Source: Candidatus Woesebacteria bacterium GW2011_GWA1_39_21 (GTDB taxonomy: Bacteria; Patescibacteriota; Microgenomatia; UBA8517). From it: a DNA stretch of 59,744 nucleotides. The stretch covers positions 1 through 59,744 of the forward strand of contig LBWP01000012.1 in NCBI GenBank assembly GCA_000993685.1. Direction: 5' to 3'. Shown one piece after another: positions 6,378-43,473 of this stretch (the stretch's first letter is position 1; each line of letters opens with the position of its first letter). The translations under genes and the position numbers were made by a program. Below the pieces are notes generated by a model. That model worked only from the letters and a program-made list of their open reading frames with translations. It searched no databases and was not told where the DNA came from.

Positions 6378-7313
6378 CTACTGCGACTTTGCACAGGAGA
6401 AAACTGGAACTCTCATTATAATAAATCCAAATCTGGCAGAGACGTAATTAAATTTGCAGCTTACTCCTAAGAACGGCATGTAATATTCCTTGGTTATCGG
6501 TGGTTGCGGTGTTTCCGTTGGCGTGGGTGTTGAGGTAATCTCATCTGGGGTAGGGGTTGGTGTTTCCGATGGTTGAGGCTCTTCCGTAGGAGTTAGTGTT
6601 GAGGTTGGCTCTTGAGTAGGTGTAGGCGTCTCACTTAAATTTGGTGTTGGTGAAACTTCAACTTCGGGGTTTTCCGAGTCCGATATTGTCCCTTGAGGGT
6701 TAGGGATGTTTCGGAGTATTAAATCATTGTAGTTGTTGTTTGAGTCATACGAATTACCCCTTGTTGTGTCAGACCCGACCGTCATTGACTCAACACTTGA
6801 AGTTTCAAACGCTTTTCTCTCAATACTTTCTCCAACAGCAGGATTTATTGCAGGCTGCGTTTCGTAATCTGATGCGGAATCTCCGTACCCAACTAAGTCG
6901 ATGGTTGTATCTGAGCTATTTTTCAATATGACGGTATTATTATTTGAGAGACTATACGAACCGGAAGAGTAAATATTGTCGTACTGATAATTTCCGGAAA
7001 CGTCCGGATGTGTAATTAAGAAAAAGCCGTGTGCTTTGATCATTCCTGACATGCTCGAAATAAGTGGCGATTCTGTTCCTGAGGAAGTTTTTTTACGTAA
7101 TTTCCATCCAGTTAAATCAACGTCTGTACTTGTGGCGTTGTAAAGTTCGACAAATTCGTCGTTAGCGGTTGCTCCGCCGATTTGGATTTCAGAGATTACA
7201 ACATAATCCGTTGCAGATTTTACGTAAGATTGCTTGTAAGAAAAAAATAGTATTGCGGCGAGAAAAACAACTGCCAAAGGAGCAAGTGTTTTTTTACTTA
7301 ACATGCGGGGCAT
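6378..7313 (-). CDS. secreted lamin-tail-domain protein
   Basis: 311 aa. Residues 8-26 form a signal anchor. A lamin-tail (LTD) beta-sandwich covers about 35-180, with the typical start VVISEIQIGG, the motif DEFVELYNAT, TGWKLRKK and the later VDLVGYG. Then a long Thr/Pro/Glu linker (about 215-275) made of TPTP-type repeats, and a short C-terminal segment containing two cysteines. LTDs in bacteria are found on secreted nucleases and surface proteins; here no catalytic domain is attached. The same Thr/Pro linker style recurs in the proteins at 9843 and 58259. Confidence 0.75.
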   Translation of the reverse strand: MPRMLSKKTLAPLAVVFLAAILFFSYKQSYVKSATDYVVISEIQIGGATANDEFVELYNATSTDVDLTGWKLRKKTSSGTESPLISSMSGMIKAHGFFLITHPDVSGNYQYDNIYSSGSYSLSNNNTVILKNSSDTTIDLVGYGDSASDYETQPAINPAVGESIERKAFETSSVESMTVGSDTTRGNSYDSNNNYNDLILRNIPNPQGTISDSENPEVEVSPTPNLSETPTPTQEPTSTLTPTEEPQPSETPTPTPDEITSTPTPTETPQPPITKEYYMPFLGVSCKFNYVSARFGFIIMRVPVFSCAKSQ

Positions 7314-35577: not shown

Positions 35578-36027
35578 TTATTTATAATCGGAAGAATCCA
35601 AAAGTATTGTTACCGGTCCGTCAAGTTCAAGCGAGATTTTCATATATTCTCCAAAAACACCTTTCTGAACATCGATTCCCTTTTGTTCGAGAAGCTCCAA
35701 AAAGAGTTCATACAAAGTTCGCGCCTCTTGCGGGTTTTTTGCTTTAATAAATGAGGGTCGATTACCATCTTTAGTATCAGCATAAAGAGTAAATTGTGAC
35801 ACAACCAATATCGAAGAATTTGTGTCGGAAACAGATAAATTCATCTTATCGTTATCATCAGACATGATTCTTAATTTAGATACTTTTTCCGCCAATACTT
35901 TTGCATCAGCCTCAAAATCACTCTCACCGACTCCAAAAAGAACAAATAGCCCTTTGCCAATTTTCCCCGACACTTTCCCGGACACACTCACTTCAGCTCT
36001 GTTTACCCTTTGAATAATCAAACGCAT
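35578..36027 (-). CDS. dtd: D-aminoacyl-tRNA deacylase
   Basis: 149 aa, full family length. Removes D-amino acids (and glycine from tRNA-Ala). Landmarks: MRLIIQRVNRAEVSV at the start, the SQF motif in LVVSQFTLYAD, and the Gly-cisPro-type segment late in the protein, here DGPVTILLDS. The -10 box TAAAAT (36034-36039) is six bases before the ATG. It is the last chromosomal gene left of the comM 3'-fragment. Confidence 0.95.
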   Translation of the reverse strand: MRLIIQRVNRAEVSVSGKVSGKIGKGLFVLFGVGESDFEADAKVLAEKVSKLRIMSDDNDKMNLSVSDTNSSILVVSQFTLYADTKDGNRPSFIKAKNPQEARTLYELFLELLEQKGIDVQKGVFGEYMKISLELDGPVTILLDSSDYK

Positions 36028-36072: not shown

Positions 36073-36192
36073 TCAAAGCTCACTTTCCTTCGGTCTGTAT
36101 TGAAGGGCTTCCGCTATGTGATTAGTCGTGATATCCTTTACTCCCTCCAAATCTGCAATCATCCGAGCGATTTTTATTACTTTAAAGAAATA
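36073..36192 (-). pseudogene. displaced 3' end of comM (fragment 1)
   Basis: Reads YFFKVIKIARMIADLEG and on through ITTNHIAEALQYRPKES to a TGA stop, matching the last 39 residues of the ComM protein at 41924. Immediately upstream in frame is a stop, so nothing of the gene before this point remains. DNA identity to the comM copy at 41924 is only roughly 70%, so it is not a recent duplicate. It ends 16 bp from the nucleotidyltransferase gene. Confidence 0.85.
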
Positions 36193-36208
36193 TTTTATTC
36201 ATTGTTAT

Positions 36209-37009
36209 TTATAAGTCAGACTTCCTTTTTAAACTATTAATCCTATTTTTTCCGTCTTCGAGTAAATATACCCTCATTTCAGCTGGTATCCTTTCCCACC
36301 GACTTAGGCACCTGAAAGGTGCCGCTACTTCGACAGGAGTTTCCGCCGAATATTCTTTTAAAAACCGATGTGTAATATTGTCCTTCAACCTTTCTAAAAG
36401 CTCTTCGCCATTGTTTTTATTATCTACCAAAATTTTGGTTCCACAAACATACCTATCTACGAGAGGACCTGGTACAAAACTACCATTGGGTGTTAACAAA
36501 AACGCTGGGAAAAACGTTACTTCTCTCCCGGAAAACAACCAATATGTTTTTGAAAATTTAACCAATCTACCATCAAAAGTTCGTTGAGAATAGTCCTGGT
36601 TAGGGTTGAAGTTACCTGAATTTCGAATTGCTAATAAGTACACATCTTTGTCCAGATTAACTAAATCCGTATTAACCACGTCTACAAACGATCGTGAAAC
36701 TGTTATATCAATTCCGACTGGAACATCTTTTAAAAAACTTTTTATTTGTAACATATCTATCCCCTGGCTTTCTTTTGAAATTGTTAGGCAATCATGCAAT
36801 CCTGAAATTAAAGGTTGTAATAGATTGTCGCCTTTCACTTTTTCCAGTCCATTTATTTCTGGAGTAACTACCTCGATATCAATATCTGAAGTTGGTTTGG
36901 GTAAACCATATGCCCTTGAGCCTTCAAGTAATATGTAATCAGATAGCGGGGAAAAAATTTCAACCACCCTCTCAATTATTTCGTTAGAAAAGCGTTCATG
37001 TGATGACAT
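36209..37009 (-). CDS. nucleotidyltransferase-fold protein
   Basis: 266 aa from the ATG at 37009 (MSSHERFSN). The catalytic signature GSRAYGLPKPTSDIDIEVV (about 33-51) gives the GS motif and the DxD metal-binding pair of DNA-polymerase-beta-like nucleotidyltransferases; a third acidic residue is probably in PVGIDITVSRS. The C-terminal 150 residues are unassigned. Such proteins transfer nucleotides to small molecules or proteins. It lies within the comM-bounded island, back to back with galE. Confidence 0.75.
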   Translation of the reverse strand: MSSHERFSNEIIERVVEIFSPLSDYILLEGSRAYGLPKPTSDIDIEVVTPEINGLEKVKGDNLLQPLISGLHDCLTISKESQGIDMLQIKSFLKDVPVGIDITVSRSFVDVVNTDLVNLDKDVYLLAIRNSGNFNPNQDYSQRTFDGRLVKFSKTYWLFSGREVTFFPAFLLTPNGSFVPGPLVDRYVCGTKILVDNKNNGEELLERLKDNITHRFLKEYSAETPVEVAAPFRCLSRWERIPAEMRVYLLEDGKNRINSLKRKSDL

Positions 37010-37113
37010 AGTAAGTGAAGTATATAACACATAACCTATTATGGGATATATTTCTGTTTTTGTATTTTGATTTAAGGATATTAATTAATATACAATACGA
37101 TCATAGACATCCA

Positions 37114-38124
37114 ATGAAAATATTAGTTACAGGGGGTTCAGGTTATATCGGTAGTCACACTTGTTTAGAACTACTTAAAATGAATTACGAAGTTGCAGTA
37201 ATTGACAACTTGAGCAACAGCAAGAAGACAAGTCTGAAAAGAGTCGAAAAAATAACAAAAAACAAAATAGACTTTTTTAAAGTTGATTTGCTCGATTTAA
37301 AAAAATTAAATCATGTTTTTGACAAATTCACTCCCGATGCAGTAATACACTTTGCTGGGAAAAAAGCAGTAGGGGAATCGGTAATAAAACCTATAGAATA
37401 TTATAAAAACAACCTAGGTGGAACAATAAATTTAATTGAGGTAATGAAAAACCATAATATTAAAAAATTAATCTTCAGCTCCTCCTGTACTGTATACGGC
37501 TTGCCCAATAAAGTCCCTATAAAAGAAGATTTTCCTGTGTCGGCGGTAAATCCCTACGGCAGGACAAAACTTTTTATTGAATTTCTTTTACAGGACGTCT
37601 CTCAGTCGGATCCCAATTGGAATATTATTGTTTTAAGATATTTCAATCCCGTCGGAGCCGATCAAAGCGGTATTATTGGGGAAGATCCAAACGGAATTCC
37701 TAATAATCTATTTCCGTACATAACTCAGGTGGCTGTCGGAAAATTGCCTATACTTTCAATCTACGGTAATGATTACCCTACTCCTGACGGAACCTGTATC
37801 AGAGATTATATCCATGTAAGTGATTTAGCTTTCGGTCATGTAAAAGCTATCGATAAACTACGCAAATCTTCAGGTACTAATACATATAACTTAGGAACGG
37901 GCAAAGGTTACAGCGTTCTAGAAGTGCTCTCTACATTCGAAAAAGTGACGGGTAAAAATATTCCTCACCGATTCGTTAAAAGAAGAGAAGGTGATGTATC
38001 AGCTTCATATTCGGATACAACCAAGGCTCGCCGGGAGTTGGGGTGGAAAGCTAATAAAAATCTCGAAGACATGTGCAAAGATGCGTGGCATTTCCAATCT
38101 TTGAATCCCCGAGGGTACAACTGA
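37114..38124 (+). CDS. galE: UDP-glucose 4-epimerase
   Basis: 336 aa from the ATG at 37114 (MKILVTGGSGYIGSH); the frame is open upstream but without family character. Extended short-chain dehydrogenase converting UDP-glucose and UDP-galactose. NAD-binding GGSGYIGS, catalytic Ser in FSSSCTVYG, and YGRTKLFIE (YxxxK) are intact, as are RYFNPVGAD and IRDYIHVSDLA. Length is standard. In the comM-bounded island, suggesting imported cell-surface sugar metabolism. Confidence 0.93.
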   Translation: MKILVTGGSGYIGSHTCLELLKMNYEVAVIDNLSNSKKTSLKRVEKITKNKIDFFKVDLLDLKKLNHVFDKFTPDAVIHFAGKKAVGESVIKPIEYYKNNLGGTINLIEVMKNHNIKKLIFSSSCTVYGLPNKVPIKEDFPVSAVNPYGRTKLFIEFLLQDVSQSDPNWNIIVLRYFNPVGADQSGIIGEDPNGIPNNLFPYITQVAVGKLPILSIYGNDYPTPDGTCIRDYIHVSDLAFGHVKAIDKLRKSSGTNTYNLGTGKGYSVLEVLSTFEKVTGKNIPHRFVKRREGDVSASYSDTTKARRELGWKANKNLEDMCKDAWHFQSLNPRGYN

Positions 38125-38145
38125 TCAACTTTATGGTTAAATAAA

Positions 38146-38583
38146 TTATTCTATTTCCCCAATATACTCCCCCTCTTTTGAAAATCCTTCATTAAAATCT
38201 TCAAGTAGTTTAGCGGATAAAGTTTTTGGCAAGAGATTATCAGGTAAATTATCAATATCAAGCCATGTTAACCAAACATCTCCGTCAGGATGTTGGGGAT
38301 CTTTCATACCTTCAAGTTTCTCTGTTTTGTCAATATTTCCTAATATAAACAGCTCTATACTATGTTCATCCTCATCAAGTTTGATAAAATCACGAACGTA
38401 GAGAATTTTTTGAAAATCAAACTTCACATCTTCCCCACATTCCTCTCTGGTTTCCCTTATACACGCATCCTTTATTGTTTCCCCATACTCCAAGTGACCG
38501 CCAATATAATGATAGAAATCACTTTTTTTTCGATACTGAACTAAAACTTTCTTGTCATGAATTACTACAAGCCTTACTCGTAC
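38146..38583 (-). CDS. Nudix hydrolase without a standard start codon
   Basis: About 145 aa. A perfect Nudix box, G-x5-E-x7-RE-x-x-EE-x-G, is read from GHLEYGETIKDACI to RETREECGED. Upstream the frame continues as VRVRLVVIHDKKVLVQYRKK, the typical first strand, but no ATG, GTG or TTG exists between it and the preceding stop at about 38605. The Shine-Dalgarno AAGAGG points to a GTA codon at 38581-38583, so the start may be mutated or an ATT is used. A TTG at 38493 would cut into the Nudix box. Housecleaning of nucleotide derivatives is the family role. Confidence 0.65.
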   Translation of the reverse strand, partial: VRVRLVVIHDKKVLVQYRKKSDFYHYIGGHLEYGETIKDACIRETREECGEDVKFDFQKILYVRDFIKLDEDEHSIELFILGNIDKTEKLEGMKDPQHPDGDVWLTWLDIDNLPDNLLPKTLSAKLLEDFNEGFSKEGEYIGEIE

Positions 38584-38599
38584 ATTAATCCTCTTATTT

Positions 38600-38690
38600 A
38601 ATTTTTATAACTTTAAAATAACTTCTTGCTGATAAATTCATACTGGAGGTTTCCGCAATCATTATTTTCTAACGCAAAACTATATAACAA
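38600..38690 (-). pseudogene. comM fragment 2
   Basis: Reads MNLSARSYFKVIKI, equal to MNLTARSYFKVIKI of the comM copy, with 39 of 42 bases identical, then runs into a stop. A weaker match continues upstream (KIMIAETSS against RTMMVSATNA) with an in-frame stop. It lies between the Nudix gene and the arg promoter. Confidence 0.7.
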
Positions 38691-38692
38691 AT

Positions 38693-38722
38693 TTGACAAT
38701 GTGTTGTCATTTTTTATATAAT
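38693..38722 (+). promoter_or_regulatory. promoter of the argH-argG leader
   Basis: Perfect TTGACA, 18-bp spacer, perfect TATAAT; predicted start near 38729. Confidence 0.75.
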
Positions 38723-38728
38723 ACCTAA

Positions 38729-38957
38729 CATATTCGTGTAAAGGCGTTTGCACTGGAGTCGCGATCCAGGAGCTCCCGGTCAAAATACCGGGCGGAGTGG
38801 CCGTAATATCACTAGAGCATGTCACAAGGAAACTGAGTGCTTGAAAAATAAGGGTTATTTATCATTTGTGAATTGTAAATAACTGAAAAAGGGTGGTACA
38901 GCCTTAGAAGGGCCCCTTTGAATACCAACCAAATTTGGCATTCGAAGGGGCTTTTTT
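38729..38957 (+). promoter_or_regulatory. T-box leader upstream of argH-argG
   Basis: About 230 nt leader. The T-box element AGGGTGGTACAGC is at 38890-38902, with the TGGT bulge complementary to an ACCA tRNA end. It is followed at once by a strong terminator stem (38912-38957). Upstream, GC-rich hairpins (for example CCCGGT/ACCGGG near 38778-38796) would belong to stem I. The gene pair makes arginine, so tRNA-Arg is the expected ligand; the specifier codon could not be assigned by eye. Uncharged tRNA would favour the antiterminator. Confidence 0.75.
38912..38957 (+). terminator. conditional terminator of the T-box leader
   Basis: Sixteen-base stem, GCCCCTT...AAGGGGC with two non-Watson-Crick positions, followed by six T. 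Confidence 0.8.
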
Positions 38958-38968
38958 AGTTGTTATAT

Positions 38969-40321
38969 ATGAAAAAACTTTGGCAAAAAAATGCAGTTAG
39001 ATTAAATCCGGTTATTGAAGTCTTTGAAACAAAGGGCGATCTTATTTTGGATCAAAAACTGGTCAAGTACGATGTCTGGGGTTCAGTTGCTCAGGCAAAG
39101 ATGCTTAATAAAATAGGTATTATCACACCGAATGAATTATCCAGTGTGATCGCCGGGCTTCAGGATATATTAAAGTTAAATGAGCAAAACAAATTTATTC
39201 TGGAGGCGGGAGATGAAGATGTTCATACCAAGATTGAAAATTACTTGACGGAGAAATGCGGTGAGGTTGGTAAAAAAATTCACACAGGGAGGTCCAGAAA
39301 TGACCAGGTCTTAACGGTAATAAGATTATTTAGTAAGGAGCAATTAATTCTTATCTGGCAGGAATTAATCACTCTTGAAAATAGTTTTTTGAAATTTGCA
39401 AAAAAATTTCAGTCTGTGGCGATGCCCGGATATACCCATCTACAAAAAGCCATGCCTTCGACAGTGGGTTTATGGGCTTTGGCTTTTTTAGAGTCTCTTT
39501 TAGATGACTCTAAATCTATTAGTCATGCATATGAGTTAAATAATCAATCTCCTTTGGGTTCTGCAGCCGGTTTCGGTGTGCCGCTGGGATTAGATAGAGC
39601 GTATTCTGCTAAACTCCTGGGTTTTGCCAAAGTCCAGATTAATCCTGTTTATTGTCAAAACAGCAGAGGTAAAATAGAGGCAGAAATTGTAGCTTCACTT
39701 ATTCAGATACTGGCCACAATTAATAAGTTTGCCTCCGATGTGTTATTGTTTACAACAGCAGAATTTAACTACTTTACAATTTCCGAATCTTTATGTTCGG
39801 GAAGCAGTATCATGCCGCAGAAGAAAAATGTTGATGTAGCGGAGCTGTTAAAAAGTAAAGTGCACCTTGTTTTGGGTTATTATATCCAGCTTATAAGCTT
39901 ATCGAATAATTTGTTTTCTGGTTATAACCGGGACCTGCAAGATAGTAAAAAACCATTAATGGAGAGTTTTGAGATAGTTCTGGATAGCCTAAAAGTCGCT
40001 GATATTCTGATTAATAATCTGACTCCGAATAAAGAGAAATTATTAAGTAGTCTGACGCCAGAGATATTTGCCACGCATAGAGCATTTGAGTTAGTTAAAA
40101 AAGACATACCATTTAGAGAGGCATATCAAATGGTAGGAAGTAGTAATCAGGATATTCGTATTAAAGACATCGATAAATTACTTAAGTTATCGACCCATAT
40201 TGGCGGGACAGGAAACTTAGGTTTGAAATTATTTGAAAAGGAAGTTGGTTTAAGCAAAGTGGGTTTTGCTGAAGAGGAAAATCATTTCTATTTGTCAATA
40301 AAAAAATTACTTGAGAATTGA
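38969..40321 (+). CDS. argH: argininosuccinate lyase
   Basis: 450 aa from the ATG at 38969. Splits argininosuccinate into arginine and fumarate. Fumarase/aspartase-superfamily signature SSIMPQKKNVDVAELL is present, with the mobile-loop Ser, and HTGRSRNDQVLT plus MPGYTHLQKAMP mark the other two conserved regions. Length standard. There is no close Shine-Dalgarno; the terminator stem contains GAAGGGG 18 bases upstream. argG follows 11 bp later. Only these two arginine genes are here, so citrulline must be imported or made elsewhere. Confidence 0.95.
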   Translation: MKKLWQKNAVRLNPVIEVFETKGDLILDQKLVKYDVWGSVAQAKMLNKIGIITPNELSSVIAGLQDILKLNEQNKFILEAGDEDVHTKIENYLTEKCGEVGKKIHTGRSRNDQVLTVIRLFSKEQLILIWQELITLENSFLKFAKKFQSVAMPGYTHLQKAMPSTVGLWALAFLESLLDDSKSISHAYELNNQSPLGSAAGFGVPLGLDRAYSAKLLGFAKVQINPVYCQNSRGKIEAEIVASLIQILATINKFASDVLLFTTAEFNYFTISESLCSGSSIMPQKKNVDVAELLKSKVHLVLGYYIQLISLSNNLFSGYNRDLQDSKKPLMESFEIVLDSLKVADILINNLTPNKEKLLSSLTPEIFATHRAFELVKKDIPFREAYQMVGSSNQDIRIKDIDKLLKLSTHIGGTGNLGLKLFEKEVGLSKVGFAEEENHFYLSIKKLLEN

Positions 40322-40332
40322 GGTGGTATTAA

Positions 40333-41604
40333 ATGAATATTAAATCTGATTATATAAAAACTGCTTCTTACGAAGGTAAAGTGGGTAAGGTTAAGAAAGT
40401 TCTCTTGCTTTATTCCGGAGGGTTGGACACTTCGGTAATCTTGAAATGGATTCAGGACCATTATAAGGCGGAAGTCGTAACTTTAACAGCCGATTTGGGA
40501 CAACAACACGATGGCTTGGAAGCAATTAAAAACAAAGCTCTAAAGTTTGGAGCCGTGGATGCAATTGTAGCCGGTTTCAAAGATGAGTTTGCGGATGATT
40601 ACATAGCCACGGGTATCAAAGCCAATGCTGAATACCAAGGAGAATATCATCTTTCAACACCAATAGGCAGAGCAATACTGGCAAAAAAGGCTGTTGAGAT
40701 AGCTAAGAAAGTTGGTGCCGATGCAATTGCTCATGGATGTACGGGGAAAGGTAACGATCAAGTGAGGATTGAGGGTTATGCCCTGACTTTTAATCCAGAT
40801 ATAAAAGTAATCGCTCCGGTAAGAGAATGGGCAATGGATAGAAATGAAGAAATTAAATATGCCCAGGAGTATGGAATTCCAATTCCTGCTTCAGTGGAAT
40901 TTCCGTATAGTGATGATGACAATATGTGGGGTATTACCTGGGAAGGCGGAGAAATAACCGACCCGGGTCTGATAGCTCCGGAGGAAAAATTTTTAACCAC
41001 TTATACATTGCCTAAGGATGCGCCTGATAAACCGGAATTCGTAAAATTAGGATTTGAACAAGGCATACCAACCTCGCTTAATGGAGAGAAATTAAGTTTG
41101 GCTAATTTAATTATTAAATTGAACAAACTTGCCGGTTGTCATGGCGTAGGAACGGTTCAACTTTTGGAAGACAGACTAATCGGTCTGAAAAATAGAGGAG
41201 TATATGAACATCCGGCAGCCCATGTAATTATCGAAGCTCACAGAAATTTAGAGAAGTATGTTTCAACAAGAACCTTAAATGAGTTAAAGGAAATAATGGA
41301 TATTAAATGGGGTTATATGTGTTATGGAGGCTTATGGTATGACCCGGCCATGACAGCAATCAATGCTTTTAATGACAAGGTTAATGAAAAAGCAACAGGG
41401 GAAGTAACCATAAAACTATTTAAGGGTAATACCACAGTGGTGGCAGTCACATCCCCCTTTGCTTTGGACTATGTTTCCTTCAATAAAAATGAAGGTTATG
41501 ATCTGAATGTTAATATCAGCGCCGGGTTCATCGAAGTACACTCTTTACAAATGAAGCTTGCCAAACAGATCGAGCGAAAGATGAAATTAGGAAAACAATC
41601 GTAA
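40333..41604 (+). CDS. argG: argininosuccinate synthase
   Basis: 423 aa. Joins citrulline and aspartate using ATP. The N-type ATP pyrophosphatase loop is LLYSGGLDTSVILKW, followed by HGCTGKGNDQVRIE and KVIAPVREW. A strong ribosome site (GAGGTGG) precedes the ATG. There is an N-terminal extension of about 20 residues before the loop. Together with argH it forms a T-box-controlled citrulline-to-arginine module between two comM 3' pieces. Confidence 0.96.
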   Translation: MNIKSDYIKTASYEGKVGKVKKVLLLYSGGLDTSVILKWIQDHYKAEVVTLTADLGQQHDGLEAIKNKALKFGAVDAIVAGFKDEFADDYIATGIKANAEYQGEYHLSTPIGRAILAKKAVEIAKKVGADAIAHGCTGKGNDQVRIEGYALTFNPDIKVIAPVREWAMDRNEEIKYAQEYGIPIPASVEFPYSDDDNMWGITWEGGEITDPGLIAPEEKFLTTYTLPKDAPDKPEFVKLGFEQGIPTSLNGEKLSLANLIIKLNKLAGCHGVGTVQLLEDRLIGLKNRGVYEHPAAHVIIEAHRNLEKYVSTRTLNELKEIMDIKWGYMCYGGLWYDPAMTAINAFNDKVNEKATGEVTIKLFKGNTTVVAVTSPFALDYVSFNKNEGYDLNVNISAGFIEVHSLQMKLAKQIERKMKLGKQS

Positions 41605-41649
41605 AAACTCGATTTATCAAAGACAAAATAAAGATTATTTACGAATCGT

Positions 41650-41679
41650 TTGACAATCCTATAATATGCGAAGTAAAAT
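41650..41679 (+). promoter_or_regulatory. promoter of second leader
   Basis: TTGACA, 18-bp spacer, TAAAAT; a TATAAT also occurs at about 41660. The -35 context matches that of the arg promoter. Confidence 0.45.
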
Positions 41680-41689
41680 ACGGAATATG

Positions 41690-41807
41690 TTTGGGATATA
41701 CTCTTTCACCCTAAGGCTGACATTAACTCCTCGCAGGAGAGTATAGCTTTTAGTGAGAGGAAATTCTTATTCCTTATAATACCTCTCATAAAAGAGAGGT
41801 CTTTTTG
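41690..41807 (+). promoter_or_regulatory. attenuator-like structured leader
   Basis: TATACTCT (41697) pairs with AGAGTATA (41738) to close a domain that contains the hairpin CTCCTCGCAGGAG. Then TGAGAGG (41754) can pair with CCTCTCA (41782) as an antiterminator, competing with the terminator ACCTCTC/GAGAGGT plus T-run (41781-41807). Two exclusive structures before a start codon are the layout of a riboswitch or attenuator. No known class was recognised. Confidence 0.5.
41781..41807 (+). terminator. intrinsic terminator in second leader
   Basis: Perfect 7-bp stem ACCTCTC/GAGAGGT, six-base loop, then CTTTTTG. Confidence 0.75.
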
Positions 41808-41818
41808 TTATTAAAAAT

Positions 41819-41896
41819 ATGAGTATAGAAAAAATCGATTTGAAAGCTGGATTGTTATCTGATAGAACCGCTAAAGAATTCGGCACCAAGGTTTAA
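41819..41896 (+). pseudogene. 25-codon stub of a gene after the second leader
   Basis: ATG followed by SIEKIDLKAGLLSDRTAKEF, GTKV and TAA, 12 bp after the terminator. It looks like the N-terminus of a larger protein cut off where the comM 3' end begins (41924). It could also be a genuine short peptide. No family recognised. Confidence 0.45.
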
Positions 41897-41923
41897 TTAA
41901 ATTCCAACACCAAGTCAGAGGTT

Positions 41924-43473
41924 TTAAAATTCACTCTCTTTCGGACGATACTGAAGCGCTTCGGCAAGATGTGAAGTCAAAATATCTTTTTCACCGGCCA
42001 AATCTGCAATTGTTCTGGCAATTTTTATAACTTTAAAATAACTTCTGGCTGTTAAGTTCATTGCATTTGTTGCCGAGACCATCATTGTACGACAGCCAAC
42101 GGAGAGTTGACAGAATTCCTTAACGCTTTTGGTTGTCATTTCACTGTGATTCCTGCGCGCGCAGGCGAGTTTGTGTTTTTATATCGTCTAGTTTGAACAT
42201 CTCTCGCCTTCTGAACTCTTTTTTGGATTTCTTCGGACGATTCCCTTTTGTTGTTTCCCCTTCGATCATCATCTACCAGTTTTTGTGTTTCAACCGACGG
42301 AACATCAATGTGCATATCAATCCGATCCAGAATCGGACCCGACACTCTTTTTTGATACCTGGAAACCATTCCGGGAAGGCACTTGCACGGTTTTTTCGGG
42401 TCACCAAAATAACCGCACGGACAGGGATTGCTTGCGGCTACCAGTAAAAATTGTGCCGGATAAGTCACAGTACCTTTAGCTCTGGATATAGTTATCTTTG
42501 CATCTTCCATTGGCTGTCTTAATGCCTCCAAAACATGTCTGGGAAATTCGGGAAACTCGTCCAAAAACAAAACCCCTCGATGTGCCAGCGATACTTCACC
42601 TGGTGACGGATTGGTTCCCCCTCCAATAAGACCGATCCTGCTTGTTGTATGATGCGGACACCTAAATGGTCTTGATGTAATAATTGATTGACCAATCGGC
42701 AAATTTCCAGTAATCGAGTAGATTTTTGTTACTTCCAAAGCCTCGTCTTCAGTAAAGCGTGGAAGAATCCCTGGCAACGCTCTGGCAAGCATCGTTTTTC
42801 CGCTACCAGGTGAACCCTTCATAAAAATATTGTGTGACCCGGAAGCGGCGATTTCTATCGCCCTTTTTGCCGATTCCTGTCCGACAATTTCAGAAAAATC
42901 AAATTCTGCGTCGGCGGTTTTCAAAAGTGCCGATAGTCCAATTGGTTTAAGGCTTGGTACCTTAACAGTTCCTGCAGTAAACCTGACTAATTCTAAAAGA
43001 GATTCTATCGGGTAGACTTTAATTCCGCTTACAACTGCAGCCTCATTTTCATTAACTTTGGGAATAAAAACTGCGCGCATCCCTTTTTCTTTCGCCAAAT
43101 AAACCAGAGGTAAAATTCCGTTAGTATGGCGCAGAGTTCCATCCAAGGACATCTCACCAAAAAACAAAAGGCCGTCGACTTTGGGTGCAATTTGTCCGGA
43201 AGCGATTAAAATTCCCAATGCGATCGGCAGGTCGTACGAAGGACCGGCTTTGGGAAGATCGGCGGGGGCTAGATTTACAGTAATTCTCCTGACCGGAAAA
43301 TCAGCTCCGGAGTTTTTAATTGCCGAGCGAACTCTCTCTTTACTTTCCTCAACTGCTTTATCTGGAAGTCCGACAATCGTAAACGAAGGCAAACCTTCCT
43401 GGATGTCAACCTCAACGTCAATCAACGTAGCATTTAACCCAATCGTTGCCCCTGAAGTAATCTTTGCGAGCAT
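41924..43473 (-). pseudogene. comM: comM (YifB, Mg-chelatase-like) with one frameshift
   Basis: ComM is a hexameric AAA+ helicase that drives branch migration in natural transformation. The 5' frame (42136-43473) gives 445 aa with Walker A GSPGSGKTMLARAL, Walker B GVLFLDEFPEF and the CxC region NPCPCGYFGDPKKPCKC. It stops at ITVK just where the next frame begins NHSEMTTKSVKEF and finishes the C-terminal domain. Deleting one GC from the TGCGCGCGCA run at about 42155-42164 restores an unbroken protein of about 517 residues, the family length. Either a real inactivation or a sequencing error. Confidence 0.85.

Follow-up and report, generated by a model that had tools for sequence, protein, structure and literature searches.

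The comM gene of Candidatus Woesebacteria bacterium GW2011_GWA1_39_21 lies in a 59,744-nucleotide (nt) stretch of DNA analysed here as a whole (the window; contig LBWP01000012.1, which is contig 12 of a 30-contig, 1.04-Mb genome labelled G000), where comM and dtd are both on the minus strand, comM upstream of dtd, with cargo genes between them. The most probable account of this locus, at a probability of roughly 0.8, is that two or more site-specific integrations into comM were stacked here and have since decayed. In the window genome and its relatives, comM is a recurrent site for site-specific islands that restore the gene: comparison of the genomes reveals a recurrent junction in relatives, replacement of the tail within the gene, a displaced older tail, and near-empty sites. 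The original prediction, made from the window alone, had proposed repeated insertion at a comM attachment (att) site; that insertion is site-specific, falls in the 3' part of the gene, resupplies the gene end and moves old tails toward dtd was borne out, but the position assigned to the att site was not.

The comM-related features of the window, as open reading frames (ORFs) or as matches to a hidden Markov model (HMM) of the comM tail, are:

35578..36027, minus strand: dtd, the downstream neighbour of comM in 18 of 47 stretches (TIGR00256, above cut-off)
36075..36195, minus strand: displaced comM tail remnant 1, 39 codons, adjoining dtd (HMM and DNA match)
38597..38671, minus strand: displaced comM tail remnant 2, ~25 codons, abutting the Nudix gene without a gap (HMM and DNA match)
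41924..42139, minus strand: comM 3' end in the other frame, the in-gene tail (ORF with an ATGA overlap with the first ORF; HMM match)
42136..43473, minus strand: comM 5' part, codons 1 to ~441, first reading frame (ORF; protein 91% identical to that of the same-genus genome G001 over codons 1-386)
42152..42165, no strand assigned: palindrome CCTGCGCGCGCAGG in a short insert (42140-42175) beside the comM frame break (direct reading of the sequence)
42310..42321, minus strand: comM codons 385-388, ATT GAT ATG CAC (I-D-M-H), the probable integration point (tail junctions in relatives G001, G013 (two), G021, G035 and G045)

Remnant 1, already recognized as a divergent comM tail without its gene, matches the end of comM over 112 nt at 72% ungapped identity (E 3.2e-12), and the comM-tail HMM matches it at 36079-36195 (E 5.5e-14, 47.1 bits). 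The 42-bp comM match reported at 38600 was likewise recovered as remnant 2 (38600-38641, 39/42 nt, 93%; HMM match at 38597-38671, E 5e-5, 17.9 bits). Twenty mononucleotide shuffles of the 6-kb stretch scored at most 1.0 bit with the same HMM, and the local DNA score was 34.5 for the real stretch versus at most 15 in 30 shuffles; chance similarity of the tails is ruled out by the shuffles and the HMM scores. The two remnants overlap at comM codons ~469-478 (HMM positions 97-105; remnant 1 starts at codon ~469), and therefore come from two tails rather than from one tail cut in two. The window's own comM, first described as one gene at 41924-43473, is frameshifted: it consists of two overlapping ORFs (42136-43473 and 41924-42139), and the break lies beside the short palindromic insert. 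Other small inserts were observed in the linkers of the displaced tails in G021 and G013.

Displaced comM tails and empty sites in relatives

A search with the 5' part of comM covered 38 genomes (the window's own included) and gave a match at E<1e-60 in 29, several of which have extra C-terminal comM fragments downstream. Up to 20 kb around comM was taken from these and further genomes, and 47 oriented stretches were scanned with the HMM of the comM C-terminus; a comM-tail match is present in 44 of the 57 genomes of the order that were searched. The suggested look for relatives in which dtd adjoins comM was borne out: in G044, G051, G052 and G062 the site is nearly empty, the comM match ending 17-37 nt before dtd. 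In 18 of the 47 stretches a single piece spans both dtd and the comM end; the gap exceeds 5 kb in three of them (G000, G001 and G045), all of which contain displaced tails (that of G045 found through its DNA, not by the HMM), and the HMM detected no displaced tail in the 15 with gaps of at most 3.6 kb. Displaced tails occur also in G010, G013 (two), G015 and G021, and, among the class-level matches listed, in other families (G035, G171, G178 and G377); those of G178 (14 bits) and G015 (22 bits) are weak. Comparison of the comM-dtd interval, as had been suggested, thus yielded islands that end in a displaced comM tail, 1.7-14 kb long, in other genomes of the order or class.

The count of displaced tails leaves out comM genes with two adjacent matches (G000, G007, G040, G164, G268, G282, G328 and G352), additional long matches on separate contigs in G149 and G273, and a 9-bit HMM match at position 7148 of G013 contig 17. 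A second comM-end remnant of ~14 codons in G010, seen by eye and also uncounted, EALQYRPQGEDVI, directly follows the displaced tail and is itself followed by a Nudix gene (L037, 6375-6640 after reversing), forming another stack. G045 has four more cargo genes between its decayed tail and dtd (L097:7183-9188; one without a Pfam match, then Nudix, Ham1-like and Nudix), and a protein start similar to that of its Ham1-like protein also follows the tail on G013 contig 17, as judged by eye. Elsewhere in comM, G017 carries a copy of codons 1-35 about 1.5 kb upstream of the gene (L062:6422-6529), a possible mirror-image insertion at the 5' end, and on G031 contig 2 (L112) comM stops at codon ~217, with the next piece ~16 kb away at the contig end.

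Junction at comM codons 384-388 and replacement of the gene end

Thirteen displaced tails were counted after those starting at a contig edge (G048, G158, G171 contig 5 and G259) had been dropped; the G021 tail was kept although a contig end cuts its 3' side. Six of the 13 start at comM codons 384-388 (G001 numbering), namely at HMM positions 12-15 (codons 384-387) in G001, G013 (twice), G021 and G035, and at codon 388, by DNA, in G045; none starts 5' of these codons. The six fuller junctions come from five genera of two families (f1 and f9), and no comM homology longer than ~15 nt was seen in the 80-90 nt before these tails. The coincidence of six tails within five codons marks a fixed insertion point in comM. 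The original prediction had placed the junction at the DNA for SYFKVIKIA, where the left tail begins, and had taken the shared sequence TTTTTATAACTTTAAA as the att core; this is a conserved coding stretch kept in both remnants, and the fuller tails place the junction ~250 bp deeper in comM. As an att core TTTTTATAACTTTAAA was rejected, none of the six fuller tails having its junction there.

In five of the six fuller junctions an arm at the island end, A[AT]AGG, precedes the tail's CAC by 10 nt (11 nt in G045). Among 347 CACAT sites in all stretches, eight have A[AT]AGG 9-11 nt upstream: the five island junctions, two in the core of comM itself at 9 nt (G029 and G039), and one other. A 26-nt block, CACATATCATTGCGTTTGTTGGAAAC, has six copies at no more than one mismatch in 22 stretches, all at comM tails, and no copy elsewhere or at internal att sites of these stretches was found at up to six mismatches. 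Among five tails of the G001/G013/G021 type, mean identity is 97% over the first 27 nt counted from CAC and 72% over the following 15 nt; the corresponding values for 14 native-type tails are 73% and 66%. The binomial odds for the 26-nt block versus the rest of the tail range from 0.0007 to 0.056 in three non-independent pairs.

The tail within the gene has a different history from the 5' part. The proteins of G000 and G001, which belong to the same genus, are 91% identical over codons 1-386 versus 60% over the in-gene tail, and those of G013 and G021 are 81% identical in the 5' part versus 92% in the tail (DNA identities of 5' part versus tail, 74.6% versus 66.8% and 69.3% versus 83.5%, respectively). 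The 5'-part tree joins G000 with G001 (support 100/99) and rejects a group of G001, G013, G021 and G045 (p-AU 1.4e-6, approximately unbiased test), but the tail tree unites in one clade (98/94) the in-gene tails of these four genomes and two displaced ones, from G013 contig 17 and from G021, and rejects a grouping of the in-gene tails of G000 and G001 (p-AU 0.006). Its placement of the displaced G001 tail beside the in-gene tail of the window genome is not firm (76/82). Since the tail tree conflicts with the 5'-part tree, an element arrives with a tail of its own and drives out the resident one; the conflict and the AU tests indicate that a new comM end comes from the element and takes the place of the old. 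Not all pairs have diverged: DNA identity between the in-gene and the displaced tail is 93.9% in G035 and 87.1% in G021, compared with 59.2% in G001 and 63.9% in G013.

The remnants of the window can be compared with these tail types. At the DNA level remnant 1 most resembles the in-gene tails of G001 (77.6%), G021 (74.8%) and G013 (73.3%), is only 61.3% identical to the displaced tail of G001 (rank 27 of 29 rows), and is the sole match reported in the window genome when the G021 tail DNA is the query (82% over 94 nt). The best DNA match of remnant 2 is the in-gene tail of the window's comM. The tail types hint at two sources for the remnants, without settling their order, and the type of remnant 1 is not firm. 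The Nudix gene next to remnant 2 is 78-79% identical to the Nudix gene downstream of the comM tail in G010 and G045, similar to the 79% identity of the comM 5' part between these genomes; thus, the Nudix block may not have arrived recently and could instead be an island of old, shared descent.

Proposed integration mechanism and alternative explanations

In the proposed mechanism, an incoming element would recombine with comM at codons 384-388 (I-D-M-H, DNA about ATTGATATGCACAT). The end of the element would be its own comM 3' third, so that the gene stays complete, and the resident 3' third would be displaced beyond the element, in the direction of dtd. An element arriving later would repeat the integration, with the result that older tails line up between comM and dtd. 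Both tails of the window would have arisen at this same point and have since lost their 5' parts, and block 1 (Nudix-galE-nucleotidyltransferase, closed by remnant 1) would be older than block 2 (argH-argG, closed by remnant 2). A site-specific recombinase would be supplied by a fuller element or in trans, the candidates being the Ccr-like large serine recombinase (LSR) and the Xer-like tyrosine recombinase of the G013 island.

The suggested search of related islands for a recombinase next to the core gave recombinases in one island only. The 14-kb island of G013 encodes a 301-amino-acid (aa) tyrosine recombinase and a 562-aa LSR in adjacent genes, along with a LexA-like gene and a CD-NTase-like gene. 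The LSR (PF00239, PF07508 and PF13408) is weakly closest to the CcrC, XisF and CcrB models, and the tyrosine recombinase to Xer models and, more weakly, to integron-integrase models, all below cut-off; both genes are internal to the island, separated from the tail by 3.8 kb and from comM by 7.9 kb, and so are not beside the att site. The gene directly before the G013 displaced tail (L036:14860-16314) is of the SMODS/AGS_C (CD-NTase-like) type, a possible defence gene. The Pfam comparison covered all ORFs of at least 100 aa between comM and the tail in the islands of G001, G010, G021, G035 and G045, the window's five cargo genes and five genes of the G013 island. Of the seven islands examined, only that of G013 has a recombinase. 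The cargo of the relatives' islands includes kinases, Nudix, CYTH, methyltransferase, radical-SAM and glycosyltransferase proteins, among others, and several ORFs without a match. The one LSR match of the window genome is on another contig (C2:597). Among 19 genomes, 16 have matches to PF07508 (34 in all), which at 40% identity form five groups of at least two and ten singletons; tyrosine recombinases occur in all 19, the identity grouping having covered LSRs only. Among the five window cargo genes there is no match to a transposition family, and the comM tail is rebuilt in relatives, unlike the situation in AbaR/Tn7-like islands.

Several observations weigh against a stack of site-specific integrations. 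No recombinase was found by Pfam among the five window cargo genes, nor between comM and the tail in G001 (7 ORFs), G010 (6), G021 (5), G035 (2) and G045 (5); a group of LSRs common to all island-bearing genomes was sought among the 19 genomes and none was found, the only LSR of G001 standing alone. Seven of the 13 displaced tails, both window remnants included, start at scattered later points (HMM positions 52-105), and these look eroded. Remnant 1 is 72-73% identical in DNA to native-type tails, close behind its best matches, so that the tail types leave the order unsettled, and in protein it is closest to the window's own tail and to the displaced native tail of G013 (75% over 39 aa). The first displaced tail of G013 has no A[AT]AGG arm, the in-gene tail of G045 lacks the 26-nt block although its body falls in the same clade, and comM itself often reads GATAGGATTGAT at the position of the arm, which may therefore be partly a comM-like core with a one-base shift. 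An imperfect inverted repeat between the island-end arm and the tail arm (9, 8 and 6 of 12 positions in three islands; chance of at least 9 of 12, 0.0008, and of at least 8, 0.005) is only suggestive. A pattern of the arm plus native comM gave five hits in 379 genomes of the phylum (one in the reversed control), none of which is a comM tail, and it thus predicted nothing new.

Two explanations dispense with site-specific integration. As the product of a competence gene (PMC7508600), ComM invites an account by natural transformation with homology-assisted illegitimate recombination, in which donor DNA pairs with the conserved comM, exchanges its 3' end and is joined to a random point further downstream; tail swaps did take place, and seven of the 13 displaced tails do have scattered starts. 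Random joining would not give six tails that start within five codons in five genera of two families, five of the six island ends share an arm at near-fixed spacing, and the 80-90 nt before the fuller tails hold no comM homology longer than ~15 nt, all of which makes this account unlikely. The second account has the comM 3' end duplicated in tandem, with unrelated genes inserted later and the sequences drifting; it would suit the high identity of in-gene and displaced tails in G035 and G021, but in G001 and G013 the identity is low and the two tails belong to different parts of the tail tree; duplication also leaves unexplained a tail clade common to four genera against the 5'-part tree, and appears very improbable.

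A further possibility is a version of the site-specific integration reading and concerns the identity of the recombinase: that it is a Ccr-like LSR as in G013, all of the islands descending from comM-targeting serine-recombinase elements. The LSR lies inside the G013 island, comM homologues are reported as a preferred LSR target (PMC10083194), and for the stacked ssrA islands the proposed integrase is CcrB-like (PMC3146451). Proviral contigs also have LSR-like genes near comM fragments that start at codons ~214, ~276, ~300 and ~348: in six viral contigs (L116, L117, L119, L136, L146 and L147) an LSR-like match is at most 0.8 kb from a comM fragment (codons ~216, 214, 276, 348, 302 and 298, respectively), and in L116, L117, L121 and L125 comM starts at codons 213-216. 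Codon 385 is absent from these proviral start points, and thus other elements seem to strike comM at other points; the tail-arm block has no exact match in the viral contigs. Relatives of the G013 LSR are rare, being found, with G013 included, in 4 of 57 genomes of the order (E<=1e-10) and 3 of 373 of the class (E<=1e-50), and the Xer-like tyrosine recombinase shares the same island. On balance, the chances of a serine-recombinase origin for all of the islands fall slightly short of even.

More tentatively, and with the odds leaning against it, comM could be a chromosomal docking gene for recombinase-less cassettes, each composed of a comM 3' end, cargo and an island-end arm and moved by a recombinase encoded elsewhere. 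If so, the newest cassette would always be next to comM, and each insertion would swap the C-terminal quarter of the ComM helicase with DNA uptake kept, unlike insertion of the islands that break comM.

Cargo genes, comparable islands and significance

The two gene blocks between comM and dtd have the composition originally described, including leaders:

36209..37030, minus strand: cargo nucleotidyltransferase-domain protein (PF01909)
36224..36230, minus strand: AAAAAGG, a possible leftover of an island-end arm, weak, which also encodes Lys-Arg of the nucleotidyltransferase (by-eye comparison with other island ends)
37114..38124, plus strand: cargo galE, UDP-glucose 4-epimerase (TIGR01179, above cut-off)
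38146..38592, minus strand: cargo Nudix hydrolase with no obvious start (PF00293)
38738..38920, plus strand: compact T-box-like leader of argH (RF00230, 34 bits, E 3.9e-5; the gathering score of 93 is not reached)
38969..40321, plus strand: cargo argH (TIGR00838, above cut-off)
40333..41604, plus strand: cargo argG (TIGR00032, above cut-off)

Beyond argG, a structured stretch (41668-41896, plus strand, z -2.18) contains a terminator-like hairpin and then a 25-codon ORF, MSIEKIDLKAGLLSDRTAKEFGTKV, possibly a truncated gene, which ends just before the comM 3' end. A search of this second leader (41668-41815) for a riboswitch matched no Rfam family at E<=1.

Large serine recombinases are known to target a magnesium-chelatase gene, which we take to be comM/YifB. 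Homologues of the magnesium-chelatase gene are reported as the target of 12.4% of predicted site-specific LSRs (PMC10083194), so that those elements and the comM islands described here share a target gene family. The LSR sites are grouped in that report by the genes disrupted on insertion (PMC10083194); the islands here, by contrast, bring a replacement 3' end, enter at codon 385 and in six of the seven examined show no recombinase.

The closest parallel in arrangement is the set of ssrA islands of Dehalococcoides (DsiB, CcrB-like serine recombinase), which have been described as stacked, with copies of the gene end, a motif preceding each copy and some islands that lack the integration module (PMC3146451). 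Like the comM islands, they are stacked downstream of a single-copy gene, with gene-end repeats marking their edges and an element motif just upstream of the repeats. The module-less islands may move by accretion, as proposed in the same report (PMC3146451). The ssrA islands have a tmRNA gene as target, a 20-bp repeat and, in 16 islands, a six-gene integration module (PMC3146451), whereas the comM islands have a protein-coding gene as target, a displaced piece of up to ~120 codons, and recombinase genes in one of seven (G013). The AbaR islands of Acinetobacter interrupt comM and lower transformation (PMC7508600). These resemble the islands described here as cargo islands in comM, and differ in that the present ones restore the gene end with a tail carried by the element.

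Staphylococcal cassette chromosome (SCC) elements at rlmH and integron cassette arrays likewise form arrays at one attachment gene, and their recombinase may come from another element; SCC restores only a few codons. Neither a ccr pair nor an integron integrase was shown in the comM islands, for which no attC search was made. A 2025 study of gene exchange in Patescibacteria reports more than 100 islands, and its main text does not mention comM (PMC12455944); among the literature matches listed, no title or abstract opening describes comM islands of this kind. Relative to the known comM, LSR and ssrA islands, the gene-restoring, stackable and mostly recombinase-less nature of the comM islands appears to be new.

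Such islands would offer these small-genome bacteria a route for gaining metabolic cargo (here the arginine genes, galE and Nudix), by elements that restore a competence gene where others disrupt it. The definition of the att site, the arms and the empty sites is sufficient for a directed search for the recombinase. The C-terminal ends of comM are unfit as vertical markers in this group.

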